From: Alphaproteobacteria bacterium
GTDB lineage: Bacteria; Pseudomonadota; Alphaproteobacteria; Elsterales; Elsteraceae
Length of the DNA stretch: 64,000 nucleotides
Assembly: GCA_004292755.1 (NCBI GenBank)
Contig: RDXE01000038.1
Span: 1 to 64,000, forward strand
Direction: 5' to 3'
Shown piece after piece: positions 29,735-51,223 of this stretch. Within the stretch, counting starts at the first letter, position 1; each line of letters begins with the position of its first letter. Both the position numbers and the translations under genes were made by a program. Under the pieces are notes generated by a model, which was not told where the DNA came from, ran no database searches, and was given only the letters and a program-made list of their open reading frames with translations.

Positions 29735-30385
29735 CTAAAGATGTCGATAGAGGAACCGAGGAATGTAAAATCTCCGGCGATTCAACAGCACACCCGCAAG
29801 ATTTGCGCGGGCATCGACCAGCTGATCGCGAAGTTTATCGGCGACGGGAGCACGGGTGTTGTCTGCGACCAGCACCATGACCACTGCCTCCGCCATGCTA
29901 GCCGCGATGATACCGTCAAATGATCGCGCGGGAGCAGGCGCATCAATGATCACCCATTCGAACAAGCTTTTCAGCTGAGCCAAAAACACGTCGGCTTCCG
30001 GTGGCGGCTCGCCAATCGCAAACCCAGGCGGCAATCGCCGTGAGACCATGAGTGTGGAGTTTTCCACTGGTACCACGTCAAATGCCTGGCCCCCCAGGGA
30101 CGCAGGCAGCACCATGGTGCCCCAGGGGTCCTCCCGCAACAGATTGCTCGCTTCCAAGGCGTCGGCCTGGGCGTTGCGCGGTTGACCCAAGTCGAGCAAA
30201 AGGATTGGCCTACCCGCTTCCTCCGCCGTCAGCAGAGCAAGGTCGAGCGCGAGGGTCGAGGTACCGGCCTTTGGTTGCGGGGCAATCAACTCGATGACCC
30301 GCGCATCCTCGCGGGTCAACTGCCGGACCATGAACAGCAGCTGGCTCGCCTCTTCCGCGCGCATGAGCAGGGGTTTCAAGCTCAT
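29735..30385 (-). CDS. CpsD/CapB-like exopolysaccharide ATPase with degenerate P-loop
   Basis: 216 aa MinD-like fold resembling bacterial tyrosine kinase (BY-kinase) cytoplasmic domains. The Walker A position reads APQPKAGTSTLALDLA: the invariant GKS/T lysine is replaced by Thr42. The Walker A-prime region ILLLDLGQPR (D65) lacks its usual second acid, while Walker B WVIIDAPAP is intact. There is no Tyr-rich tail, only FYIPRFLYRHL. It may be a regulatory pseudo-kinase of the adjacent GumC protein. It overlaps that gene by 4 bp. Confidence 0.75.
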   Translation of the reverse strand: MSLKPLLMRAEEASQLLFMVRQLTREDARVIELIAPQPKAGTSTLALDLALLTAEEAGRPILLLDLGQPRNAQADALEASNLLREDPWGTMVLPASLGGQAFDVVPVENSTLMVSRRLPPGFAIGEPPPEADVFLAQLKSLFEWVIIDAPAPARSFDGIIAASMAEAVVMVLVADNTRAPVADKLRDQLVDARANLAGVLLNRRRFYIPRFLYRHL

Positions 30386-31890
30386 CGAGTCGGCGCCACC
30401 CCAACGCTCAACCGGGGCGGCAATCGACGGAAATCATCGACGGCAAGCAAAACAGGCAGGTCGTAATGCCGCTCCACTTCATCAGCAGTCAAGAACCGCT
30501 GACGCAGTCCGGCGCGAACCAACGCCACGGAAACGCCCACCAGCATCCCAACCAGCACCGCACCAATGATGATCAAGGGCCGTCGGTCCGTTGGACGAGC
30601 GGGAACGGCGGGCGGCTGTGTCAGGCGAATGTTCGCCTCGCGGCGTGCCTCTCGCTCTGCAATCGCTGAAAACTCCTCCAGCTTACGGGCATAGAATTGC
30701 TGGCTCTCCTCTAGGATCTGGCGCTCTCGGGCAAGACGGTCATGATCATTGGTGTTGCCAATCACTTCAGCCAGGGTTTGATTCAGTGCCTGAATGGTAA
30801 CCAGAACAGCTGACCGCTGAGCTTGCAGTCCCTCCTGCGCAGCCGTTAGCGAGACTTGGCGCTGCACAAAATCATCCCGCACTGAATTGATCTGCGTTGC
30901 GCGAAGTTCCTGACGCCGTAAAGCAGTCCGATCAATGAACTCTTTCAGAGATGCGATTTGACGGTCAAGGTCCTGTACGAAGGCAGATTCCTCTGTAAAG
31001 CGTGTCAACAAATCCTGTCGTCGGACCTCAAGTGTGACCAATGTCGCGCGCGCACCTTCAACATCAGGTCGTTCTGATTGCTCCACAAAGGCGTCAACCT
31101 GCCGTGGCATTGTTGCAATTGCTCGATTGAAGGCTTGCAGCTGCGCCTCACTCTGCCGGACTTGCTGGTCGATCTGTTGCAACAGTTCCTCAGCCTCCGC
31201 GCGCTGGCGCAGCAAGGTGATGGTTTGGGTTTCAATGCTCCACAGCCGGGTGCGCTGCTGAAAGCTGCGCAACGCCTCATCCGCCGCGGCAAGGCGGCGC
31301 TCAAACTCCTCGGCTTGGCGCTCAATGAAGTCCGTCTGCGGCGGGCGGAACACGGCACGCCGACGTTCCAGGTACTTCTGGATCAGCAGCGCCAACGCGC
31401 GTTCGGCCAATGCCTCGTCTGGATGGCGAAACGAGATGCGGATCGAGCTTGCCTCAAACGTGGTGTTGAAGGTGAGTTGCCCCTCGAACCGCCGCACGGC
31501 CTCATCCAAGGCTCCAGGCGGCAGACCGGGATAGAGTTGCCCCAGGCCAATCTCGCCAATGACCTGGCGCTTGGCCTCGGCCTGACCAATGATTTCAATT
31601 TCCGCTGCAACAATCTGGTCGCGGTCCAACGCCGACCCGACCCCGGCCTCGCCGATCTCAGAGCGGAAGATGTAGTCAGTGGACGGCAAAATCAGCAGGC
31701 GCGCCTCTGCCTCATAGATCGGTGTCTGCCTAGAAGCAGCCATAACCCCCAGCATCACGGGCAGACAGAACCCTGCCAGCACCCAACGCCAATCCCGGAA
31801 CAGGTTCGATAAGAACTCCTGTCCCAAAAGATTGAGCGTGCGACGCCGGGGTTCGGTGCCAAACGCTGCGGGTTGGGAGGCTGGGGTCAA
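30382..31890 (-). CDS. GumC/Wzz-family polysaccharide chain-length protein
   Basis: 502 aa inner-membrane co-polymerase of PCP-2a type. TM1 is near residues 36-52 (WVLAGFCLPVMLGVMAA), a long periplasmic coiled coil runs from about 180 to 410, and TM2 lies near 440-460 (PLIIIGAVLVGMLVGVSVAL). The short cytoplasmic tail (ADEVERHYDLPVLLAVDD) is the usual BY-kinase contact region. With the CpsD-like protein it would set polymer length and drive export through Wza. A divergent promoter region separates it from the deacetylase gene. Confidence 0.88.
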   Translation of the reverse strand: MTPASQPAAFGTEPRRRTLNLLGQEFLSNLFRDWRWVLAGFCLPVMLGVMAASRQTPIYEAEARLLILPSTDYIFRSEIGEAGVGSALDRDQIVAAEIEIIGQAEAKRQVIGEIGLGQLYPGLPPGALDEAVRRFEGQLTFNTTFEASSIRISFRHPDEALAERALALLIQKYLERRRAVFRPPQTDFIERQAEEFERRLAAADEALRSFQQRTRLWSIETQTITLLRQRAEAEELLQQIDQQVRQSEAQLQAFNRAIATMPRQVDAFVEQSERPDVEGARATLVTLEVRRQDLLTRFTEESAFVQDLDRQIASLKEFIDRTALRRQELRATQINSVRDDFVQRQVSLTAAQEGLQAQRSAVLVTIQALNQTLAEVIGNTNDHDRLARERQILEESQQFYARKLEEFSAIAEREARREANIRLTQPPAVPARPTDRRPLIIIGAVLVGMLVGVSVALVRAGLRQRFLTADEVERHYDLPVLLAVDDFRRLPPRLSVGVAPTR

Positions 31891-31996: not shown

Positions 31997-32986
31997 ATGC
32001 AAATCGGTTCCGTGCTGATGCGGTTTGGACTGGACCGGTGGCTGCGCGCCGTCGCGGGGGGCAGTGGCGTGATCCTGGGCCTGCACCGCCTCAGACCACC
32101 CGCAGTAGATCGTTGGAGCTATCTGGACGGACTAACAATAACACCGTCCGCCTTGTCTGCCACCCTGGCTGTGTTGCGGGCGGAGGGGTACCACCCCTGC
32201 CGACTGCGCGACAGCATGAACTGGAGCCGCCGCCAGGGGCGGTTTTTCTGCCTGACGTTCGATGATGGCTACCGCGACAATCTCACCCACTTGGTTCCAG
32301 TGCTGGAGCAGTGGCAGGTGCCTGCAACGGTGTTCATCGCTACGGGCTTCATTGATCGCACGGCACGCCTGTGGTGGGACGACATCGAAACCATCCTGAG
32401 CGCCGAGACTTGCCTGATCCTCACCACACCGATGGGAGAGGAGCAGTTGGATATCGCCACGCCCGCAGCGAAAACCGCGGTTGCCTGGCAGTTGGTCCGC
32501 CGCCTCCTGGCCGCACCCGCCGAGGCCGCCACGGCATTGCTGGAGGGGTTGGAGGCGCGCTACCGGATCGACCCGGTGGCCACGGTCGACTCCGCCATGC
32601 TGACCGCCACCGAGTTAGCTGAGCTGGCACGCCATCCGCTGATCGAGATTGGCGCCCACACGGTAGACCACCACCCGCTCACCGCCCTGAACGAGGCCGA
32701 TGCCATGGCCGCCATCACGCACGGGCGGGCCCGCCTGGAAACCCTGGTCGACCAGCCGGTGAGCAGCTTTGCCTACCCGTTTGGCAGCGCAGTGACCTTC
32801 TCTGATCGGGATGTACGCCTGGTGGAGGCCGCTGGGTTTGAGCGCGCGGTGACCAGTCTGCCGGGACCAGTCCGTCACCCCATCGCCTCCCATCGGCTGC
32901 GCCTGCCGCGCATCCCTGTGTCTGGTCACAATGCCGGTGCGCGGGTGCGGTTGGCGCTCACGGGTGTCCGCCGTCCGGGGCGGTGA
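31997..32986 (+). CDS. Polysaccharide deacetylase family protein (NodB domain)
   Basis: 329 aa. Catalytic motifs of CE4 deacetylases are visible: TFDDGY at 87-92 (base Asp and metal Asp), GAHTVDHHPL (metal His pair) and FAYPFG. No clear signal peptide is seen; GGSGVILGLHRLRP near residues 21-34 matches the N-terminus of EPS-cluster deacetylases. It would remove N-acetyl groups from the exopolysaccharide or an intermediate. Its end overlaps the convergent GNAT gene by 29 bp. Confidence 0.86.
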   Translation: MQIGSVLMRFGLDRWLRAVAGGSGVILGLHRLRPPAVDRWSYLDGLTITPSALSATLAVLRAEGYHPCRLRDSMNWSRRQGRFFCLTFDDGYRDNLTHLVPVLEQWQVPATVFIATGFIDRTARLWWDDIETILSAETCLILTTPMGEEQLDIATPAAKTAVAWQLVRRLLAAPAEAATALLEGLEARYRIDPVATVDSAMLTATELAELARHPLIEIGAHTVDHHPLTALNEADAMAAITHGRARLETLVDQPVSSFAYPFGSAVTFSDRDVRLVEAAGFERAVTSLPGPVRHPIASHRLRLPRIPVSGHNAGARVRLALTGVRRPGR

Positions 32987-33944
32987 CAGCACGTCGGACC
33001 AGCCAGGGCAGTGCCAGCCGCCCCAACAGACTGGTAGCCCCGACGACGCGGCCCAGCGGGGCCGCCTGGGTCGCCCACATCGCCTTGTAGGGCTCCGCCC
33101 CGCGCAGCAAGTCAATGCCGGCGAGCCCCTCGGCAAAGGCCCGTTCGATCAAGGTCCAGAGCAAGACATGACCTGGGGAGCGGTCTGCCCAGCGCGGGTC
33201 ATAGCCCGGCAGCCAGTACATCTGCCACAGCCCCTCCCGCCACCCGACGTGAACGGCAATCGGTACGCCCTGAACCCGCAAGGCATCCACCGTCACACCC
33301 GGCAGGTCGACGACGTGATCGAGGAATGGCAGGATGCGTTGCTGCCAGGCGTGACGCCCAGCCGCGTCAGGCTGGCGCGCCAGCAGCCAGCCACGCAAGG
33401 CGTGCAGGCAGGTGGCACGCTCCTCCCCCCTCACCGCACTCGCCTCCAGCCCTTGATCGAGAAGACGCCGCCGGTGCCGCCCAATACGGGCGCGCAGATT
33501 GGCGGAACGGCTGAGCCAATAGTCTTCTGGGCTGCCGACAGTGGCGATCCTGGCCGTGCTGGTTGGCGGCAACGGCTGTAGCCCGGTCCAAGCGAGGTCC
33601 CCCACGCTATCGTCGAGACGGATCAAGTCCACAGGCAGATCAACCAGGGCGGCCCGAAGCTCGGCCAAAGCAGCCGGCGGGGTAGGACCCAGCACCCGAT
33701 TGTGGTCGGTCACGGCAATGCCGCTCCACTCCGCCACGCGCAGACCAGCCACGCGACGCAGCGCCAGCGGCAGGATGGTGGGGGCGTCGCCCTCCCACAC
33801 CAGCCAGCAGGGTGTCACGGGCCGAGTGGTGATCGCTGCTGCGGCCCACGCAAAGGTGTTCGGCGGTGCCGCAGCCTCAGGCCAGCGTTCCGCCAGGGCC
33901 GCGATCTCGGCGGGCGTGGTCAGGCGGCGAACCCGGTGGGTCAC
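32958..33944 (-). CDS. CelD/FemAB-like GNAT acyltransferase
   Basis: 328 aa cytoplasmic protein of the CelD/BcsL-like GNAT group found in exopolysaccharide clusters. The core is SANLRARIGRHRRRL, followed by IAVHVGWREGLWQMYWLPGYDPRWADRSPGH (split motif) and LLWTLIERAFAEGLAGIDLLRG. It would transfer an acyl group to a sugar or amine in polymer assembly; the substrate is unknown. It is third in the operon gumC2 - small secreted protein - this gene, with a 2 bp gap to the gene before it. Confidence 0.75.
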   Translation of the reverse strand: MTHRVRRLTTPAEIAALAERWPEAAAPPNTFAWAAAAITTRPVTPCWLVWEGDAPTILPLALRRVAGLRVAEWSGIAVTDHNRVLGPTPPAALAELRAALVDLPVDLIRLDDSVGDLAWTGLQPLPPTSTARIATVGSPEDYWLSRSANLRARIGRHRRRLLDQGLEASAVRGEERATCLHALRGWLLARQPDAAGRHAWQQRILPFLDHVVDLPGVTVDALRVQGVPIAVHVGWREGLWQMYWLPGYDPRWADRSPGHVLLWTLIERAFAEGLAGIDLLRGAEPYKAMWATQAAPLGRVVGATSLLGRLALPWLVRRAVTAPDGGHP

Positions 33945-33946
33945 GG

Positions 33947-34474
33947 CTAGAACTGCTTGTCGGACGGGTTGATCGGCTGCACCGGCAGGCGCATGCGCCC
34001 ATCGAGTGTATCGATCTCCAGCACATAGCCTTGGGTGCGAGCACCCAGCCGACCGTCATCGACGACGAACAAATCCAGGATTTCTTCGCGCGACAACACC
34101 AGTCCGGCGATGCTGCCACCAGCGCGGTTCAGCACAGTACTGCCAGAATCCCGCGTGACCAGCAGCAGCGGATGGCGGGAGTGCTCAACGGTATCCCACA
34201 CCGAACTGCGGGCATAGGGATGGGACAGGCGCATCCAGCGCACGTGCCAGCCACTGCCGCGGGGTACCGAAACATGCAGGTTGCGAACGGTCAGGCGCAT
34301 CCACACCGTTGGCACATTGCCGCTTTCCCGCGGCAAACGGTCAAGGGAGACCAACGCCTCCGACCGGCTATAGCCGACGATATAGACGAAGGAGGGCTCG
34401 CGCTGCTGGGCCGCCACCGGCAGGCCGACGGTGGCACCTGCGATGACGCCAGCGAGGCACGCGCGCCGGTTCAT
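33947..34474 (-). CDS. Secreted hypothetical protein in EPS operon
   Basis: 175 aa with a signal peptide (RRACLAGVIAGATVGLPVAAQQ, possibly Tat). The mature protein is beta-rich with no motif I recognise (WMRLTVRNLHVSVPRGSGW, IAGLVLSREEILDLFVVDDG). It overlaps the GumC-SPOR gene by 4 bp and precedes the CelD-like gene by 2 bp, so it is probably a periplasmic part of the same polymer system. Confidence 0.65.
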   Translation of the reverse strand: MNRRACLAGVIAGATVGLPVAAQQREPSFVYIVGYSRSEALVSLDRLPRESGNVPTVWMRLTVRNLHVSVPRGSGWHVRWMRLSHPYARSSVWDTVEHSRHPLLLVTRDSGSTVLNRAGGSIAGLVLSREEILDLFVVDDGRLGARTQGYVLEIDTLDGRMRLPVQPINPSDKQF

Positions 34475-36711
34475 GGGGTCCGCCGCTGGGGCAACTCGAT
34501 CACAGTGGCGGGCAGGCTGTCCTGCTCCCTCAAGCGCTGGCTCAGCAGCACGGCACCGGATCGATCAGGACCTGCCAGCACCCGGACCAGGAACCAGGGC
34601 TGCCCACTGCCATCCACCACCCGTTGGCGCTGCATGCGATGGCCCGTGGTGGCCAGGCGCGCGGCCAAGGCCTCGGCCGCCGCCTCGCCCCGGAAGGTGC
34701 CGACCTGGACTGCCCAGCGGTCACTGGTGGCGGGTTCCTGCCAAACCGGCTCGGTCGACGGGCTGCGAGGCTGCGACGCCGGGTCCCCAGCCGGTGGCGG
34801 CGCTGTTGGTGCCGCACTCGCGGGAACAGCCGGGGGTGGCACGCCCTCTTCCGGTGCTGCGCGGCGGCGTGCGACTGGGGGGCCATCGGGCAGCACAGGC
34901 GCCACCCCAGTGCCAAGGGGGATCGCCACCACTGTCAGAGCATCAGGCAACTCTGCTGGCGGGGCTGGTGGTCGCGGTGGCCCCTCGCTGGACCGCGGGA
35001 AGTCCGCCGGTGCAATGGTCTGGGCGGGGGCGGGGGCGAGGTCGAGCGGGCGGCTGGTCTGGTCTGACGCAGACGGCAGCACTTTGGCGACCCAAGCGGC
35101 CACCCACTGGACCGCTCCTCCAGCTATGCGCCACAGCGCCTCGGTCCGCAGCGGCACGGCGGAGGCGAGCAGCAAGGCCACCACCAGCACCAACACGGTC
35201 AACACCCGCCGCACGGTCAGATGCCCGGCCCAGCGGCGAACCCAACCATAGCGCCGTTGCCGGTCAGTGACAGCCGCTAACACCGGCAGGCGCAGGCGCC
35301 GCTCCACATCCCGCTCATCCAGCAGCGTCTGGCGGAACACCCCGCTCAAGGCCAGCAGGAACACCGAGGTCATTGCCGCACCCACCAGCGCGACCAATGC
35401 GATCGGTCGCTTCAGGCTTGCGCCGCGGGTTGGCACTTCTGCGGGTTGGATCACGCGCACGGTGGTGCGGGAGCGCCGCTGCAACTCCTCCGCCACTTCG
35501 GCTTCGGCGAAGCGTCGGCGGGCCTGGGTGTATTGCTCGGTCAACAGCTTGACCTCGCGCAACGCCTCATCCAGCAGCGATGATTGCGTGACCAGAGTGG
35601 CAATCGCGGCCCGCGTTGCCTCCATCTGCCGACCAACCTCATCGCGGCGTGCAATCAAACCCGGCAGGTCGACGCGGGTGAGCGCCACCTGCCGCTCCAT
35701 CTCGTCATTGGCATTGGTGCGCCCGCGCCGCACCGCTTGTTCGCGCCGGAGTGGGGAGGCTGCCAGCACGCGCTCCAACTCGCCGATCTGGCGCTCCAAA
35801 TCCTGCGCCTGCTGGGTTGGGCGCAAGAACCGCGCCTGCAGCTCGGCGCGCCGCAACTCCAACTGCACCAAAGTGTTGGTGCGATTGTCGAACTCCGGGC
35901 CGGCCGTCTGGTCACGCCCCAGTTCCTGAACCCGGGGCAAGCTGGATTGCCCGGTGATCAGTCGACCCAACTGGGCCGTGGTCTGTGCCACCTGTTCGCG
36001 CAGACGGGCATCAACTGCCTCCAGCCCGGCGAGGCGGCGCACCAGCAAGTCGCGCTGTTCCACGGGATCAATGATGCCGGTTTGCAGTTGCAACTGCGCC
36101 AGCCGGTCCTGCGCCTCACTGAGGCGTTGTTCCATGCGGTCGCGTTGCAGGGCCAGGGTCGGCGCTTGTGGGCGCGCAAAGACCACGGCCCGGCGTTCCA
36201 GATACAACTCGATCAATACCCGCAACGCCTCGGCAGCCGTCTCGGCGTTGGCGTGGCGATAGCTGACGCGCAGCAGCGAGGTTTGCTCCGGCGTGTTGGC
36301 GGAGATGTCGCGACCGAACTGTACAGCTGCCCGCTCCTCCCCCTCCGGATCGCGGACGAACTCAGGATAAAGCCGCTCCACACCCAAGCGCGCCACGACT
36401 TCGCGGTGTAATTGGCGGCTGGCGAGGATGTCTTGCTCCGCCTTCACGATCTGGGAGCGGGAGAACACATAATCCCCCGCAGCGATGCCCAACTCTGGCC
36501 TTAGCGCATACTCCGAGCCGATCAGCACCAGCAGCCGCGCAGAGGACGTAAAGGTGGTGGGTGCCTGCATCGCCGCCCACAGACCCAAGCCTGCGACGGT
36601 GCAAAAACTGATCACAATCAACTGCCAATGCGCGAACACCCGCTGAAACAGCGGGGTCAGATCAAGGCGTGACCGGGACGGTCCGCCGCGCGCAAGGGCG
36701 CTGTCAAACAT
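34471..36711 (-). CDS. GumC/Wzz-family protein with extra transmembrane helix and C-terminal SPOR domain
   Basis: 746 aa, much longer than usual. TM1 is at about 30-48, the periplasmic coiled-coil body at about 180-425 and TM2 at about 434-458; a cytoplasmic tail with DERDVERRLRLPVLAAV follows, as in other GumC proteins. It then adds a third hydrophobic helix at about 502-520 (VLTVLVLVVALLLASAVP), a Pro/Ala-rich linker to about 660, and a SPOR domain at about 664-738 (RWAVQVGTFRGEAAAEALA, WFLVRVLAGP). The third helix would return the chain to the periplasm, where SPOR domains bind denuded septal peptidoglycan. It overlaps the next gene by 4 bp. Confidence 0.85.
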   Translation of the reverse strand: MFDSALARGGPSRSRLDLTPLFQRVFAHWQLIVISFCTVAGLGLWAAMQAPTTFTSSARLLVLIGSEYALRPELGIAAGDYVFSRSQIVKAEQDILASRQLHREVVARLGVERLYPEFVRDPEGEERAAVQFGRDISANTPEQTSLLRVSYRHANAETAAEALRVLIELYLERRAVVFARPQAPTLALQRDRMEQRLSEAQDRLAQLQLQTGIIDPVEQRDLLVRRLAGLEAVDARLREQVAQTTAQLGRLITGQSSLPRVQELGRDQTAGPEFDNRTNTLVQLELRRAELQARFLRPTQQAQDLERQIGELERVLAASPLRREQAVRRGRTNANDEMERQVALTRVDLPGLIARRDEVGRQMEATRAAIATLVTQSSLLDEALREVKLLTEQYTQARRRFAEAEVAEELQRRSRTTVRVIQPAEVPTRGASLKRPIALVALVGAAMTSVFLLALSGVFRQTLLDERDVERRLRLPVLAAVTDRQRRYGWVRRWAGHLTVRRVLTVLVLVVALLLASAVPLRTEALWRIAGGAVQWVAAWVAKVLPSASDQTSRPLDLAPAPAQTIAPADFPRSSEGPPRPPAPPAELPDALTVVAIPLGTGVAPVLPDGPPVARRRAAPEEGVPPPAVPASAAPTAPPPAGDPASQPRSPSTEPVWQEPATSDRWAVQVGTFRGEAAAEALAARLATTGHRMQRQRVVDGSGQPWFLVRVLAGPDRSGAVLLSQRLREQDSLPATVIELPQRRTP

Positions 36712-42131: not shown

Positions 42132-42911
42132 ATGGATGCCGCCACCCGCAACCTGCAACTCTACAACAGCGATCAGGGGGTGGGCACCTACGCCGCGGCG
42201 TCCGAGGCCACTCCTGTAGAGCGCCAATTGTTTCAGCGCTTTGCCACGGATTTCGGTGCCGGTCTGGTGTTGGACCTTGGCGTCGGTGCGGGTCGCACGA
42301 CGGCAGCGCTGGCCGCGCTGAGTGGACGCTACCATGGCATCGATTACGCCCCGGCCATGGTTGCCGCCTGCCAGAGGCGCTTTGCGGCACAGCCTGAGTT
42401 GATGTTCAGCCATGGCGACGCCCGGCGGCTGGATGGCATTGCTGACGGTGCTGCAGCAGCTGTGGTGTTCAGCTTTAACGGCATTGACAGTGTCGGACCG
42501 GACGATCGTCTCGCAGTGCTGGCTGCCGTCCGGCGGGTGTTGCGCCCCGGTGGCTTGTTTCTGTTCTCTGCGCACAATCGGGCGTTCCAGGGCATTCCAC
42601 GCTCGCCTGGGTGGCAGTGGACGCTGCGCCCTCGCGGCCTTGCTCGCCAAGCCTTGATGTGGTGGAACCACCTGCGCGTGCGGCGCGACGAAGTGGAAAC
42701 ACCCGACTATGCGATGCTGAACGACATCGCCCATCACTTCGCCAGCCTGTTCTACTATATCGACCGCGACGCCCAGTGCCGCCAATTGGCTGCTGCGGGC
42801 TTCAGTGACTGCCAAGTTTTTAACAGCCGGGGGGAGATGCTGCCCGCCACAGCGGTTGATACAGGCAACGACCCGCACCTGCATTACGCCGTCCGGCGTC
42901 CAATGGATTGA
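42132..42911 (+). CDS. Class I SAM-dependent methyltransferase
   Basis: 259 aa. SAM-binding VLDLGVGAGRTTAALA near residues 46-61, IDYAPAMV (acidic motif II), and VRRVLRPGGLFLFSAHN. Tight spacing (4 bp after the glycosyltransferase) places it in the dehydrogenase-GT operon as a sugar methyltransferase candidate. Confidence 0.85.
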   Translation: MDAATRNLQLYNSDQGVGTYAAASEATPVERQLFQRFATDFGAGLVLDLGVGAGRTTAALAALSGRYHGIDYAPAMVAACQRRFAAQPELMFSHGDARRLDGIADGAAAAVVFSFNGIDSVGPDDRLAVLAAVRRVLRPGGLFLFSAHNRAFQGIPRSPGWQWTLRPRGLARQALMWWNHLRVRRDEVETPDYAMLNDIAHHFASLFYYIDRDAQCRQLAAAGFSDCQVFNSRGEMLPATAVDTGNDPHLHYAVRRPMD

Positions 42912-42916
42912 CGGCA

Positions 42917-44317
42917 GTGACGCGGGAACCCTTTCCCCGAGGACTCTATGGTGGTCGCCAGTTGCCGCCACCAACCCGCGCTGCAGTCCATGCCGTAAGC
43001 CAGCCCACTCAAAGCTTGGAGACGTTGACCAACGCGCTCATTTTTGGCGTGGTGGTCATGTTTTGCACGATCTCTGGTTATTTCTTGGAAGCACGCGGAA
43101 TTTCCTATATGAGCCCCGGCGGCAATTTTCTCATGAAGATGCATCCTGGGACGTATATTATGAGCGGCATGTTCGGCCTATTGGCTCTTGCCCTCAATCC
43201 AGTGCGGTTCATTGTGCTGCTGTGGGATCGCCAGGGGCCGGGCTTGGTTTATACTGTGTGCTCCATCCTGCTGTTCATCTGGGTGGTGGTGCGCCACGGC
43301 ACGTCGGGCACCGCCTTTATGATTGATTGCTTGATCGTGCCGGGTCTGCTGGCGCTGTCGATGGCAATGTTGACCGACCAGAACCGAGATCGCCTGTACA
43401 TCACGGTGATGGTCCTGATGGGCATCAATGCCGTGATTGGCATTGGCGAGTTCTTGACCCGCACCCGCCTGACCCCGTTTACCATTGACGGGGTTGAAGT
43501 GGTGGAGCCGTTTTTCCGCCCAACGGCGTTGCTGGGTCACCCATTGCAGAACGCGCTGATGACGTCGATGGCGTTCTTCACCCTGCCCGCCTTGCGTGAT
43601 CGGCCTCTTATCGCGCTGCCGCTGGCCATCCTGTTTCCCATGGCGCTGTTCAGCTTCGGCGGGCGCACAGCGATGGTGATCACCGCCGGGATGACCACGC
43701 TGCTCGGCACGCTGTGGTATCTGGGCCGTCTGTTTGAACGCAAGGTCAGCTATGTCAGCTTCCTCGGCGCGCTGGGGGTGGTGCTGGGAGTGCCGATGGC
43801 CGCCGGTCTGGTGCTGTCGGTGCTCGGGTCAGAAAGCCGTCTGGTGCAGGAATTCTATTGGGACACCAGCGCCCAGTCGCGCCTGCTGGCCTTGCGGATT
43901 TTTGACCAGTTGACCGCAGGCGACATCCTATTCGGCATTGGCCCAACCGGGATTATCGAACAAGTGCAAGTGCTGGCCAACTTCACCGGCATCATCGGAA
44001 TTGAGAATGGCTGGCTACTGCTATTGTTACACTATGGGTTGTTTGGCTTTGTTGTCTTCATCGTCACTCTAACGTGGTTCCTGCTGGCAATCACATCAGG
44101 CGCGCCTGCTTACATTCGCACGGTGCTGGTGGTGTTTATCTTGATCGCGTCTTCCAACAACTCACTGGCGGCGAAGGATAGCTCACTGATCCTGCTGGTG
44201 CTGCTGGCCTATGGCGCCACCTGCTATGAGCGCCGTCAGGCCGCCCGCGCTAAGGAGCGGCAGGCGCGGGAGATGTTGATCCCGTCCCGGTCGCTCCGCG
44301 GGTCAAATCGCGACTGA
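42917..44317 (+). CDS. Polysaccharide polymerase / O-antigen ligase-like membrane protein (VpsF/Wzy type)
   Basis: 466 aa inner-membrane protein with about eleven helices (for example ALIFGVVVMFCTISGYFL, FIVLLWDRQGPGLVYTVC). The periplasmic loop region has the pattern RPTALLGHPLQNALMTSM and IEQVQVLANFTGIIGIENG seen in VpsF/Wzy-like proteins. It would polymerise repeat units on the periplasmic side. I prefer GTG 42917 to TTG 42908, which overlaps the previous stop. The end overlaps the convergent Wza gene by 68 bp. Confidence 0.83.
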   Translation: MTREPFPRGLYGGRQLPPPTRAAVHAVSQPTQSLETLTNALIFGVVVMFCTISGYFLEARGISYMSPGGNFLMKMHPGTYIMSGMFGLLALALNPVRFIVLLWDRQGPGLVYTVCSILLFIWVVVRHGTSGTAFMIDCLIVPGLLALSMAMLTDQNRDRLYITVMVLMGINAVIGIGEFLTRTRLTPFTIDGVEVVEPFFRPTALLGHPLQNALMTSMAFFTLPALRDRPLIALPLAILFPMALFSFGGRTAMVITAGMTTLLGTLWYLGRLFERKVSYVSFLGALGVVLGVPMAAGLVLSVLGSESRLVQEFYWDTSAQSRLLALRIFDQLTAGDILFGIGPTGIIEQVQVLANFTGIIGIENGWLLLLLHYGLFGFVVFIVTLTWFLLAITSGAPAYIRTVLVVFILIASSNNSLAAKDSSLILLVLLAYGATCYERRQAARAKERQAREMLIPSRSLRGSNRD

Positions 44318-45017
44318 GGGTATAGGAAAACCCGCTGTCGAACGGCAGAATACCGCGGATGTACTGGGTCACGAAGCGGTTGATCTCTGCAATCGTGCTG
44401 CGCGGCACGTAGACAATATCGAAGGGTAGCAGCGGCACATCCTGGCTTGGGTCGCCCGTGCTGAGGAATTGCTGCAGATCGAGGGAGCGCAGCATGGGTC
44501 GGCCATCGGCGCCACGGCGGATCAGTGCCACCGATTGCGGGCGGGCATTGGCGGTAAAGCCGCCTGCGATTAGCACAGCCTCCAACACGCCGACACGACC
44601 TGGCAGCGCGTGCACGCCCGGCGAGGCAACCTCGCCACCAACGATCACCCGCTGCGAGCCATAAAGACGCGGCACCACCACCACATCGGGCCGACGCAAA
44701 TCGCGGGAGAAGCGCTCCCGCAGATGGACCCCCAACTCATCGGCAGTCATCCCCTCCGCCCGCACTGAGCCGATCAGGCTCAACGCGAAGCGACCGTCGG
44801 GGCCGATCAGCACCCGGTCAGAGAACTCCGGATTGTAAAGCAGACGCACCTCGATTTCGTCGCCGGGTTTCAGGCGATAGCCGGGCACGTCTGCCGTCCA
44901 CGGCGCGAACGCGAGCGGTTGGTCCGCCTCCGGGGCAACCACACCCATGCTGCTGCACGCCTGCGCCGTGCCGAGGGCAAGGGCGAGGGCAATCCGCCGG
45001 AACCAGATGAACGTCAT
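44250..45017 (-). CDS. Polysaccharide export lipoprotein (Wza/GumB family)
   Basis: 255 aa outer-membrane export channel protein. The signal peptide ends in lipobox AQAC with Cys21. Residues about 45-125 are the Poly_export domain (YRLKPGDEIEVRLLYNPEFS, VLIGPDGRFALSLIG). A SLBB domain follows (VIVGGEVASPGVHALPG). It pairs with the GumC proteins to span the envelope. The C-terminal coding end overlaps the polymerase gene on the other strand by 68 bp. Confidence 0.93.
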   Translation of the reverse strand: MTFIWFRRIALALALGTAQACSSMGVVAPEADQPLAFAPWTADVPGYRLKPGDEIEVRLLYNPEFSDRVLIGPDGRFALSLIGSVRAEGMTADELGVHLRERFSRDLRRPDVVVVPRLYGSQRVIVGGEVASPGVHALPGRVGVLEAVLIAGGFTANARPQSVALIRRGADGRPMLRSLDLQQFLSTGDPSQDVPLLPFDIVYVPRSTIAEINRFVTQYIRGILPFDSGFSYTLSRDLTRGATGTGSTSPAPAAP

Positions 45018-46855: not shown

Positions 46856-47913
46856 CGCTGCGTCACGGTCGACCAAGTGAACTCCGCCGCCCGTGCGCGC
46901 AACCGATCCGCTGGCACGGGGTCCGCGCGGCAGGTCTGGATCGCAGCTGCCAAGCCTGCGGGATCACCAACGGGTGCCAAAGGCCCGAGATCACCATCCT
47001 CCAGAATGTAGCGGGGGCCACCGGGAGCATCGGTTGACACCACGGGCGTGCCCCAGGCCATCGCCTCGACAAGCACATTGCCAAACCCCTCGTGGCGGGA
47101 GGGCAGCACCACGGCACCGGCACGGGCAAACCACGCATCGGTACCGGGCACAGTGCCAACAAAAGCGACGCGCGCCGACAAGCCGAGGGCCACGGCCTGT
47201 GCCTCCAGCGCGGCCCGCTCCGGCCCATCGCCCAGCAGGATCAAACGCTCTTGTGGCAACAGGGCAAGGGCAGCGAGCAGCGTGGCGACATCCTTCGATG
47301 CCACCATCCGCCCGGCGAACACCAGGGGGCCGGGTTGCTCGGTCAGCCAGGGGTGGGGGGCTGACGGGAGAGCCTGCGGCAGAGCCGGGATGACTGGATT
47401 GCCCACAACGCTGACGGCCCCGCGCGGCAGACCCGCCACTGCCGCCATCGCCACTGCAGCATCAGGCGAGACCGCGATCCGCCCGGCGGCTCGGCGGTAC
47501 AGCAGCCGAATTGCAAGCCTCAACGCCAGACGCTCCAGCCTGCGCCGGTCCATCAGTTCACGGTCCAGCATCAAGTGCTCGGTTATCACCACGGGCGTGC
47601 CGCGAAGGCTGGCAAGAGCGACCAAGTTGTTGTGGGGCAAGGCGCTCAACACCACGTCGGGTGCCGCCTCGGCCACGGCGCGTGCCAGCACGGGACCAGC
47701 CTGGGTGGTCCGCCGCACACCCAACGGCACCACGCTGACGGTCGGGGCGATCAGCGGCGCCAATCCCCCCTCCGCCCGGTCCAGGATCAAGGTGACCCGG
47801 CGCCCAGCCTCGGCGAAGCCGTTGGCGAGGGTGATCATCACCCGCTCCGCCCCGCCGACGGCGAGACTGGGCAGATACAGGCCAATGTGCCCTGCGCCGC
47901 GACCGCCCGTCAT
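46795..47913 (-). CDS. Glycosyltransferase, GT4 family
   Basis: 372 aa. The glycine-rich donor-site loop appears as HIGLYLPSLAVGGAERVM; the donor domain has PLVFAGRMVASKDVATLL, LLGDGPERAALEAQA and RHEGFGNVLVEAMAWG (EX7E). The last gene of the heparinase - flippase - GT operon, joined to the flippase gene by an ATGA overlap, which fixes ATG 47913. Confidence 0.9.
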   Translation of the reverse strand: MTGGRGAGHIGLYLPSLAVGGAERVMITLANGFAEAGRRVTLILDRAEGGLAPLIAPTVSVVPLGVRRTTQAGPVLARAVAEAAPDVVLSALPHNNLVALASLRGTPVVITEHLMLDRELMDRRRLERLALRLAIRLLYRRAAGRIAVSPDAAVAMAAVAGLPRGAVSVVGNPVIPALPQALPSAPHPWLTEQPGPLVFAGRMVASKDVATLLAALALLPQERLILLGDGPERAALEAQAVALGLSARVAFVGTVPGTDAWFARAGAVVLPSRHEGFGNVLVEAMAWGTPVVSTDAPGGPRYILEDGDLGPLAPVGDPAGLAAAIQTCRADPVPADRLRARAAEFTWSTVTQRYLERLDRAATGHSAKDLSA

Positions 47914-49346
47914 GGCGACCGTCGGAGGCGGGCCAGCATCAGAGTGCGCGCCCGGCAGACATCCAGCGCCAACGCTGCCAGCCCATAAACCGCAGCCCCT
48001 GCCAGCACGGTGACCACCAGGGCCAGCGGTCCCTGCGGGGTGCCGATCAGCACCAGCAGCCCAACCATGGCGGCAAGCGGCGGCACCAGTCGCAGGATGC
48101 GCCCAACCGGCACCGGCATCGGCAGAATGCGCCCGGCAATACCCAGCGACAGCAGCATATAGGTGCCTTGCGTCGCCATCGCCGCAATCGCAGCGCCGAT
48201 GACACCATAGACCGGCACCACCAGCACCAAGGTCACGCCACCTGCCACGGCGGCAGGAACAATCGCCCACAACTCCACTGCCGGTCGCTCCGCCAACTGG
48301 AACGCGTGGTTGACGTAGTGCCCAGTCAACCCATTCAGCAGGGCTGCAATGGCTATGAAGGGAAGCAGGGCGGCTGCATCGGCACTCAACGCCTCGCCAA
48401 TCATCACGGCCGTGATCGGTTGCGCCAGAAGGCACAAGCCCACAGTCATCGGCAGAGCAACAGCCAGCATCAACTCCACACCATCGGCCAAGCGCTCCCG
48501 CATCGCCTGCGGCCCAGAGCGAGCCAGCGCCGAGACCGCGAGCGGCGAGACCGCCGAGCCAATGGCCGACAAAACCACCAGGATGCTCCGGCTGGCGAGG
48601 GTTTGCGCTGCGGCATAGGCCCCGAGATCAGCCAGATCAATCAACCACGCCAGCACCAACCGGTCGCCATTGCCCATATAGCTGTCGATGGTCATCGTCA
48701 GAGTGATGGGCAGGCCATAGACCAGGACGCGGCGCACCTGGCTGCGGTCAACCACGCCCGGCTGGCGCCAGACCGCCCACGCCTCCCGATCCAGCAACAC
48801 CACCGTGGCTGAGGCGATGGCAATCGCACTGACCGCCCCGGCGGCACCAAACTCCGTCAGCGCCGCACTCGTAACGGCCAAGCCAAAGCCCAGGACCGAG
48901 ACAAGGCTCAACAGCACAAAGTACCGCCCGGAGCGTAGCATCGCCCGGTGCAGTTCCAAGTTCAGTTGAGCCGCCCCTTGGGCCAGGGTCGCGGCCAAGG
49001 TTGCCCACAGCATCGCTCCAACCGGTCGCTCCGTTGGCACCACCAGCAGCACGCACCCAGCGATCACCAGCCCCGCCGCTGCCATGATCAGGAAACCAAC
49101 CCGCAGCAGGGCGATGAACCCAGGCAGACGGTTCTGGGTTTCCGCTTCCGCAAGGAACCGCGCGAGGCTGGCGCGCGCCCAGAAGAACAGGATCGAGCCC
49201 GAAATCGGCAACAGCGCCATCGACAACGCGTAAAGGCCATACTCCTCCTCCGGCAACAGCCGGGTGAGCAGCACGATGGTGCCTAGGCCAGTGATGGTCT
49301 GCACCAGGGCGGACCCAGCATAGCCGGCGACATGCCCCATCAGCAT
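47910..49346 (-). CDS. Oligosaccharide flippase family protein (Wzx-like)
   Basis: 478 aa polytopic protein with about 12-14 helices, of the MATE-like polysaccharide transporter fold. It starts MLMGHVAGYAGSALVQTITG, then VLLTRLLPEEEYGLYALSMA, typical of Wzx. It would flip lipid-linked repeat units to the periplasm. ATG 49346 overlaps the heparinase stop by 7 bp; longer frames lack similarity. Confidence 0.88.
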   Translation of the reverse strand: MLMGHVAGYAGSALVQTITGLGTIVLLTRLLPEEEYGLYALSMALLPISGSILFFWARASLARFLAEAETQNRLPGFIALLRVGFLIMAAAGLVIAGCVLLVVPTERPVGAMLWATLAATLAQGAAQLNLELHRAMLRSGRYFVLLSLVSVLGFGLAVTSAALTEFGAAGAVSAIAIASATVVLLDREAWAVWRQPGVVDRSQVRRVLVYGLPITLTMTIDSYMGNGDRLVLAWLIDLADLGAYAAAQTLASRSILVVLSAIGSAVSPLAVSALARSGPQAMRERLADGVELMLAVALPMTVGLCLLAQPITAVMIGEALSADAAALLPFIAIAALLNGLTGHYVNHAFQLAERPAVELWAIVPAAVAGGVTLVLVVPVYGVIGAAIAAMATQGTYMLLSLGIAGRILPMPVPVGRILRLVPPLAAMVGLLVLIGTPQGPLALVVTVLAGAAVYGLAALALDVCRARTLMLARLRRSP

Positions 49347-51223
49347 CGCGCCACCACGTCGATCTCCCACACCTGTTGCTGCCCTGACGTGAGTGTGCCG
49401 ACGGCGACGAGCCTTTGGGCGCTGGTCTGGGTCCCGAACCGCAGCGACACGGGCGCGCACCCAATCGCCACCGCCAAGGGCCCCGTGCTGGTGATCCGCA
49501 CCAAGGGCTCCTGAGTGCTGGCAATCAGCCAGCCAGAGCCATCCATCGTGATGGTCAGAGCCGGATGCACCGTGAAGCCAATGCTGACTGGCCAGCCAGC
49601 CCCCGATCCCTCCAGCCAGTCGGTGATGCGCCAGCCAGCGGGGGTGGGCGCGATCATGCGACCAGTCAGTGCCCCAAAGGGTTCCTGGTACCCATCATGG
49701 CGGAGGGACCATATCTCCCCAGCCTCCCGCCAACTCCTGGCTTTGCGGCGCCAGTTGAAGTCGCCCGCGGAATCGGACGAACTCTGCCCTCCGATACACA
49801 AGCAGTTGTGGACATCGGTTGCGCGAAACCGGTCTCGGCTGCCGGGTTCCGCGTGATAGGCATAGGTTCCTGCGTCGATGAACACTGGCTGATCGTCCAG
49901 GCTCATCCACACGGCTGTCGCATCGGCATGGCCGTGGGCTGCGATGGACAGAAAGCCCAGCGGGCCGTGGTCCGCCACCAGCACCGCGATGCGCCCCGCA
50001 AGGCTACGCCGTGCGACGGAATAGCCGCCGTCAGCAAAGCACCGCTCCCCCTCCAAAACCTCTGGCGCACTGGTCAGTGGCGGCCAGATCAACGCAGACA
50101 GCGGTGCAGAGACTGGTTGTGGTGGCAGCAAGGCTGGGTCACTGGTCTCAGCCGCCAGCAGGGTGAGGGTGCGGGCCACCTGTGCTTCCCGCCCTGGTGC
50201 TTCCGAGATGACCCGGCTCTCATCATCATCGCCAATCGCAGGCACCTCGCCCTTGGTATCGACCATCCACCGCAGGGCGAGACCACCGCGCCGCAGGGCG
50301 TCCTTGAGGGGCAAGGGCGTGCCAGCCAAGTCACCGATCCGGCTGGCAAAGGCCAAACATTCCAGCGTGAAGGCGGTGTAGGTTGGCGACTGCTCCCCCC
50401 CGATGCCATCCGGCAAAATCTGGCTGGCCGCCATCGCCTGCAGCGCCGCCCCGCCCTCCTGCCGCCACGCGGCGGCGTCGGGAAGGTCGGGGCACGCGCA
50501 GCCGATGGTCCACAGACCCAAGGCCTCAGCCGTGCGGTGGTTGTTGGCCGAGGAAAACAGCGAGGGGTAGCGCTGCAGCCACGCGCCATGGGCGGCCAGC
50601 GCCGAGACCACGGTGTGCTGCTCCGCCTGCGTCCACAGATCCTGCGGCAACCACGTGGTGGTCAACACCAGGGATACCGCGCGCAGGGCCAATTCAATGC
50701 CCGACGTCCAATTGACGCCCCGCCAGGGTGGATTGTGCGCGATCCAGTCCAGCACCAAACGCTTCGCCAGCGCCCCCGCGGCCGCCTCCCCGCAGGCACC
50801 AAGGGCCGCCAGGGCAGGCAGGCTCTGCAGCCGGTTCAGCTCCCATAGGTATTTTATGTCACCGAAGCCATCCAGATGGCGAAACGGCACGTCAAAGCAG
50901 TAGGCATCGGCCTGCCACCGCCGACCAGTAATGGGGTCGAGATGCCAGTCCGGCGGCGTCGCACTGGGCCAGTCAACACCCCACCAATGCCACTGGCCTG
51001 CCGCGACGCTCCGATTGAGCTGCTGCCAGGCTGGAGCGGCCTGCCGGGGCAGGGGCAGGGGCAGGCGCGGCACGCTTACCCCCGCTGGTACCTGCGGCAG
51101 GGGTGGGCGGACCCGGTCATGGTGGCGGCGCCACTGTTCGCCCAAACGATGGCGAACCTCGCCAGGCTCCATAGCAGCCAGTCGGTCGCGGTACCAAGCA
51201 AGACGGCGGGAGAGACGAAGCAT
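49340..51223 (-). CDS. Heparinase II/III family polysaccharide lyase-like protein
   Basis: 627 aa. An N-terminal alpha/alpha toroid (NRLQSLPALAALG, LFSSANNHRTAEALGL with the conserved NNHR, GEQSPTYTAFTLE) is followed by the C-terminal beta-sheet domain (ERCFADGGYSVARR, IAAHGHADATAVWMSLDD, FIDAGTYAYH). No signal peptide is evident. Genes of this type are common in exopolysaccharide and exosortase-linked loci, where they may trim or edit uronic-acid polymer. It heads the flippase-GT operon. Confidence 0.85.
   Translation of the reverse strand: MLRLSRRLAWYRDRLAAMEPGEVRHRLGEQWRRHHDRVRPPLPQVPAGVSVPRLPLPLPRQAAPAWQQLNRSVAAGQWHWWGVDWPSATPPDWHLDPITGRRWQADAYCFDVPFRHLDGFGDIKYLWELNRLQSLPALAALGACGEAAAGALAKRLVLDWIAHNPPWRGVNWTSGIELALRAVSLVLTTTWLPQDLWTQAEQHTVVSALAAHGAWLQRYPSLFSSANNHRTAEALGLWTIGCACPDLPDAAAWRQEGGAALQAMAASQILPDGIGGEQSPTYTAFTLECLAFASRIGDLAGTPLPLKDALRRGGLALRWMVDTKGEVPAIGDDDESRVISEAPGREAQVARTLTLLAAETSDPALLPPQPVSAPLSALIWPPLTSAPEVLEGERCFADGGYSVARRSLAGRIAVLVADHGPLGFLSIAAHGHADATAVWMSLDDQPVFIDAGTYAYHAEPGSRDRFRATDVHNCLCIGGQSSSDSAGDFNWRRKARSWREAGEIWSLRHDGYQEPFGALTGRMIAPTPAGWRITDWLEGSGAGWPVSIGFTVHPALTITMDGSGWLIASTQEPLVRITSTGPLAVAIGCAPVSLRFGTQTSAQRLVAVGTLTSGQQQVWEIDVVARC

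Follow-up and report, generated by a model that had tools for sequence, protein, structure and literature searches.

The gene and its neighborhood

The window, i.e., the whole stretch of 64,000 nucleotides analyzed in this work, belongs to a little-studied alphaproteobacterial genus and harbors a gene coding for a polysaccharide co-polymerase (PCP), a protein that sets the chain length of secreted polysaccharides, which here carries a SPOR domain at its C-terminus, hereafter SPOR-PCP (Table 1). The fusion, the topology, the conservation, and the cluster context of this protein were all computed.

Table 1. Coordinates of SPOR-PCP, of its parts, and of the neighboring genes in the window.
Feature	Position	Strand	Basis or remark
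SPOR-PCP, GumC/Wzc-type polysaccharide co-polymerase with third transmembrane helix (TM3), Pro/Ala linker, and C-terminal SPOR domain	34471..36711	-	746 aa; ORF, Pfam
PCP core, residues 15-459: TM1 (29-47), mainly helical periplasmic domain, TM2 (about 437-459)	35335..36669	-	Pfam Wzz, VIA-align
Basic TM2-TM3 loop, residues 459-502, with conserved FRQTLLDERDVERRLRLPVLAAV segment	35206..35337	-	charge count, motif alignment, dN/dS
TM3, residues 503-521	35149..35205	-	hydropathy, AlphaFold
Pro/Ala-rich low-confidence linker, residues 552-662, length differing between species	34726..35058	-	composition, AlphaFold, alignment
SPOR domain (PF05036), residues 663-731, conserved Gln669 in VQVGTF	34519..34725	-	Pfam, PDB sequence match, AlphaFold
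Predicted exported protein, 175 aa, unassigned family	33947..34474	-	4-base overlap (ATGA) of its start with the SPOR-PCP stop
GNAT-like acyltransferase (Acetyltransf_6), next gene	32958..33944	-	
PCP2, paralogous PCP, 502 aa, lacking both third helix and SPOR	30382..31890	-	ORF, Pfam, tree
Stand-alone BY-kinase-like protein	29735..30385	-	NCBIfam; substituted Walker A lysine (APQPKAGTSTL), Tyr-rich tail absent
Outer-membrane polysaccharide export (OPX/Wza-type) lipoprotein	44250..45017	-	Pfam, NCBIfam
VpsF-family polysaccharide biosynthesis protein, candidate Wzy polymerase	42908..44317	+	NCBIfam
Wzx-type flippase (Polysacc_synt)	47910..49460	-	

The cluster also contains glycosyltransferases, a UDP-sugar dehydrogenase, acyltransferases, a polysaccharide deacetylase, and two asparagine-synthase-like genes. 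The joint presence of the OPX lipoprotein, the VpsF-family protein, the Wzx-type flippase, and the sugar genes therefore marks a Wzx/Wzy-type exopolysaccharide locus. The 175-aa exported protein, which is translationally coupled to SPOR-PCP and 75% identical in the second species described below, gave no family match, and the mean pLDDT of its predicted structure is 33; it is a possible partner of SPOR-PCP. Judging from its sequence, the BY-kinase-like protein is probably a pseudokinase of the EcpK/HfsB kind; it is the probable partner of PCP2 and perhaps also of SPOR-PCP. It is known that EcpK and HfsB bind the cytoplasmic tail of their own PCP, in the segment after TM2 (PMC12004946). The FRQTLLDERDVERRLRLPVLAAV segment in the TM2-TM3 loop of SPOR-PCP matches the (pseudo)kinase-docking tail segment of related PCPs in a motif alignment, and a (pseudo)kinase might thus dock on this loop as well. 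Elsewhere in the genome, four other SPOR proteins (three with cell-wall enzyme domains, namely one RlpA-like, one SLT transglycosylase, and one D-Ala-D-Ala carboxypeptidase, and one without a further domain) and two Amidase_3 amidases were found; the genome therefore encodes both candidate producers of denuded glycan, the amidases, and its readers.

Domain architecture and topology

The membership of SPOR-PCP in the PCP family is borderline by its Wzz score (residues 15-107, 26.0 bits against a Pfam cut-off of 25.5; the orthologue reaches only 18.4 bits) and clear by phmmer matches to other PCPs and by structure. The AlphaFold model, built from four sequences, consists of a Wzc-like core, a linker predicted to be disordered, and a well-predicted SPOR-like domain. 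The core was grouped with the structures of Wzc, KpsE, and WzzE by Foldseek and VIA-align; its Foldseek match to the PCP fold has an E-value of 1.6e-9, and Wzc (7nhr) superposes on residues 18-460 with a VIA-align Z of 16.6 (rmsd 5.3, 216 aligned residues). PCP-2 co-polymerases (Wzc, GumC, HfsA, EpsV) share with SPOR-PCP the first helix, the helical periplasmic domain, TM2, and a VERxLxLPVL segment, whereas after TM2 they bear a cytoplasmic tail or a kinase domain in the place of TM3, the linker, and a periplasmic SPOR domain. Indeed, Pfam detects no BY-kinase domain on the SPOR-PCP chain, which places it outside PCP-2a, and TM3 and the SPOR domain stand there instead. The first-pass annotation had described the protein as a GumC-type co-polymerase with a third helix and a SPOR domain, and this description is borne out by Pfam, hydropathy, and the structure match.

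Three helices were detected by hydropathy, the third of them (VLTVLVLVVALLLASAVPL) spanning residues 503-521, so that the earlier placement at about 502-520 was correct to within one residue. A topology prediction had been proposed as a check on this helix: TM3 turned out to be the most hydrophobic segment both in SPOR-PCP and in its orthologue (Kyte-Doolittle 2.85 and 2.83, vs. 2.07 and 2.14 for TM2). The loop between TM2 and TM3 contains 12 Arg/Lys vs. 5 Asp/Glu (net charge +7), the orthologue having 13 vs. 5, and this basic charge is as expected for a predicted cytoplasmic loop. The strong hydrophobicity of TM3 and the strongly basic loop ahead of it therefore lead to the prediction that the SPOR domain is periplasmic, and the location originally assigned to it is supported by calculation. 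In the linker, Pro and Ala account for 28% and 19% of the residues, respectively.

The SPOR domain was recognized by Pfam with an E-value of 6.4e-10 (39.7 bits against a gathering cut-off of 21; 41.1 bits in the orthologue), and when the C-terminal piece was compared with PDB sequences, the SPOR domain of E. coli FtsN (1uta, E 0.0012) was the sole match with an E-value below 0.01. It is predicted as a beta-alpha-beta-beta-alpha-beta, RNP-like fold with pLDDT of about 85-92 (strands 666-673, 693-699, 705-714, and 736-739; helices 676-687 and 717-731), and the chain 6ozd superposes on residues 662-742 with a VIA-align Z of 10.2 (rmsd 2.9, 81 aligned residues); no SPOR structure of known name appears in the match list obtained with the whole chain. 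The ligands of SPOR domains are glycan strands that have lost their peptides and are enriched at the septum; a conserved Gln (Gln270 in RlpA, Gln251 in FtsN) touches the sugar (PMC6895207). As far as the sequence can tell, Gln669 is the counterpart of these two residues, and it is conserved in the orthologue together with R692, R695, R697, and R710. The stretch WFLVRVLAGP has one residue more than the usual RVRVGP strand; this leaves Gln669 and R710 as the only plausible equivalents, and R710, R695, and R697 are plausible candidates, not fixed by the alignment, for the Arg patch. The cytoplasm-TM-linker-SPOR layout and the conserved Gln are also those of FtsN/DamX/DedD-type proteins; unlike in these, the TM-linker-SPOR module of SPOR-PCP makes up the C-terminal third of a co-polymerase.

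Conservation, distribution, and origin of the third helix

The same in-frame fusion is present in a second, independently assembled genome of the genus (G001, a MAG labelled Alphaproteobacteria), on the 15,133-base contig JAAFHH010000018.1, where a single 688-aa ORF shows the same architecture and an overall identity of 64%, which excludes both an assembly error and a chance frame. The gene order is also that of the window: SPOR-PCP, the 175-aa exported protein (with the ATGA overlap), the GNAT-like acyltransferase, the deacetylase on the other strand, PCP2, and the BY-kinase-like protein. The dN/dS values between the two species (0.15 for the PCP domain, about 0.11 for the loop 459-486, the most constrained part of the protein, and 0.22 for the SPOR domain) indicate purifying selection, while the linker drifts and alters its length and TM3 has changed in sequence, keeping its position and hydrophobicity. 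The start codons near the junction are not closely preceded by a Shine-Dalgarno-like motif, so that separate translation of the SPOR part was discarded and one long product is likely. The domain architecture of SPOR-PCP is real and conserved in two species, while its function is what we infer.

A search for this domain order in other genomes, which the first-pass annotation had also proposed, thus retrieved it in one further species of the same genus. Outside the genus, searches of 60, 385, and 397 genomes (partly overlapping sets) yielded no PCP homologue with a SPOR domain; the second and third searches, limited to two scored candidates per genome, could miss a SPOR fusion on another PCP branch. 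A contig scan with the two-row alignment of SPOR-PCP and its orthologue matched the G001 contig only, the scan with SPOR-PCP alone retrieved no relative, and plasmid records gave PCP-only matches that reached up to residue 433. Long-frame homologues suspected of having SPOR tails (L008, L010, L011, L101, and others) were rejected, as they carry kinase-like domains and have no SPOR match. Eight loci with PCP homologues in other genomes (L017, L082, L091, L105, L106, L109, L110, and L112) were flagged with at least one in-frame stop within the matched stretch. No description of a SPOR domain fused to a Wzz, chain length determinant, or co-polymerase protein was found in the literature. As far as searched, the architecture is undescribed and, in the genomes examined, limited to one genus; therefore, it is not a general solution.

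A third helix is not in itself peculiar to this protein. It occurs about 40-50 residues past TM2, with almost nothing beyond it, in all 30 XrtA-type proteins analyzed (L021-L050), in contrast to the two helices usually described for PCPs; therefore, the initial statement that standard Wzz/GumC proteins end after TM2 is not a general rule, and it fails for these 30 proteins and holds for the nearest relatives of SPOR-PCP (PCP2 and L072-L075), which end in the cytoplasm without TM3. In the phylogenetic tree, from which L042, apparently a wrong-frame row, was left out, SPOR-PCP is the sister of PCP2 (95/91), near other TM3-less PCPs and outside the three-helix XrtA clade (100/100), and at least four gains or losses of the third helix are necessary. 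Since its closest relatives lack TM3, the helix was gained separately in SPOR-PCP, with the SPOR domain as its cargo; hence, calling it an added helix is appropriate for this lineage and not as a contrast to all PCPs.

Two different readings of this helix have to be weighed at this point. If SPOR-PCP were a diverged member of the XrtA chain-length determinants that bears a SPOR tail, TM3 would simply be the ordinary third helix of that family re-used, as its occurrence in every XrtA-type protein and the alignment of TIGR03007 (XrtA chain-length determinant) with residues 28-515, i.e., into TM3, might suggest. The score of that alignment, however, is 81.9 bits, far below the cut-off of 278.85, the host genome has no exosortase (PF09721) match, and the tree groups SPOR-PCP with TM3-less PCPs; XrtA proteins, moreover, stop soon after TM3 without an added domain and form a separate branch. 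We therefore disfavor the assignment as very unlikely. It is even harder to believe that residues 503-521 do not span the membrane, or that residues 524-552, predicted by AlphaFold to be helical, cross back, either of which would leave the SPOR domain in the cytoplasm with no cell-wall contact. Against this stand the strength of TM3 in both species, the far weaker hydrophobicity of residues 529-547 (Kyte-Doolittle 1.14, and 0.37 in the orthologue), and the SPOR domain itself, which, on a Pro-rich linker, is expected in the periplasm.

Two other PCPs were also observed to continue beyond such a helix. A 741-aa ORF (L009:1504-3726, identical to L087 and L116; G022:C1:329337-331559) joins a Wzz/PCP part to a complete OPX domain (Pfam Poly_export, SLBB) through a helix ending in the lipobox-like LTALAGC; if the lipobox is processed, this would be a self-separating PCP-OPX polyprotein and, if it is not, an inner-membrane-tethered OPX. 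This fusion was not found in the four other genomes of its family that were examined. In L058:1490-3448 (identical to L088; G316:C16), the third helix is followed by about 125 Cys-rich residues, predicted to be periplasmic and without a Pfam match. The third helix with a periplasmic extension in SPOR-PCP, L087, and L088 suggests that extra parts have been attached repeatedly to the C-terminus of PCPs.

A possible link between exopolysaccharide export and the cell wall

On the whole, we lean, by a small measure, towards the idea that SPOR-PCP serves as a second PCP by which the Wzx/Wzy machine is anchored or positioned at peptide-stripped peptidoglycan, chiefly at the division site. It might have arisen by duplication from a GumC-like ancestor, followed by the gain of a C-terminal module with the FtsN/DamX layout (helix, Pro-rich linker, and SPOR domain). 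It speaks against the idea that, given the presence of the paralogue PCP2, the PCP part of SPOR-PCP could have lost the ancestral role. With TM3, the chain would re-enter the periplasm; there, owing to the flexible linker, the SPOR domain could reach and bind peptide-stripped glycan strands, and the protein would become enriched at the septum. The PCP part, alone or as a hetero-oligomer with PCP2, would form the ring for polymerization and export, taking along the OPX channel and Wzy, so that the machine would be held at, or recruited to, the cell wall under amidase remodelling, chiefly at the division site; the TM2-TM3 loop retains the segment by which related PCPs bind the BY-(pseudo)kinase. 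More tentatively, and with some doubt, we propose that the exopolysaccharide machine is targeted by the cell wall itself: SPOR-PCP would read denuded septal peptidoglycan and bring Wzy, OPX, and PCP2 there, tying export to daughter-cell separation.

The same domain anatomy (Pfam, AlphaFold, and topology) would also suit a general peptidoglycan anchor, holding the export complex wherever denuded or nascent strands occur and giving support or passage through the wall, with no septal targeting; the Wza-Wzc machine reaches across the entire envelope (PDB 9r68, 9r64), and a wall anchor could therefore help it. We consider this unlikely, since known SPOR domains bind denuded strands, and these strands are septum-enriched (PMC6895207). 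A rather low probability is also assigned to the possibility that SPOR-PCP acts as a sensor or regulator, in which the SPOR-bound state would alter the PCP ring or the docking of the (pseudo)kinase; polymer length or export would then be switched according to the state of the wall, and position would be secondary. That the docking-type loop between TM2 and TM3 is the most constrained part of the protein (dN/dS 0.11), and that partner pseudokinases exert their effect through binding to the cytoplasmic stretch that follows TM2 (PMC12004946), would fit this idea; the conservation of the loop, however, may reflect the ancestral fold only.

Anchoring of SPOR-PCP to septal peptidoglycan, which the first-pass annotation had put forward and which is here the favored reading, would be consistent with the biochemistry of SPOR domains (PMC6895207) and with the septal PCP of pneumococcus, CpsC/Wzd of Streptococcus pneumoniae, which relies on divisome-associated proteins for its recruitment to the septum, where it places polysaccharide synthesis, and whose relocation relocates capsule synthesis (PMC10233549). 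In SPOR-PCP, the proposed address would instead be built in, and, on the simplest reading, this genus has placed a septal address in the PCP itself. To our knowledge, CpsC/Wzd has no SPOR domain.

The siting of Wzx/Wzy machines in the Gram-negative envelope and their passage through the cell wall are poorly understood. If the proposed anchoring is true, a PCP that itself contains a reader of peptide-stripped peptidoglycan would act as a direct and removable targeting device, and the question of siting would therefore become testable by deleting or swapping one domain. In that case, this genus would possess a secretion machine tethered to the cell wall that is being remodelled during division.
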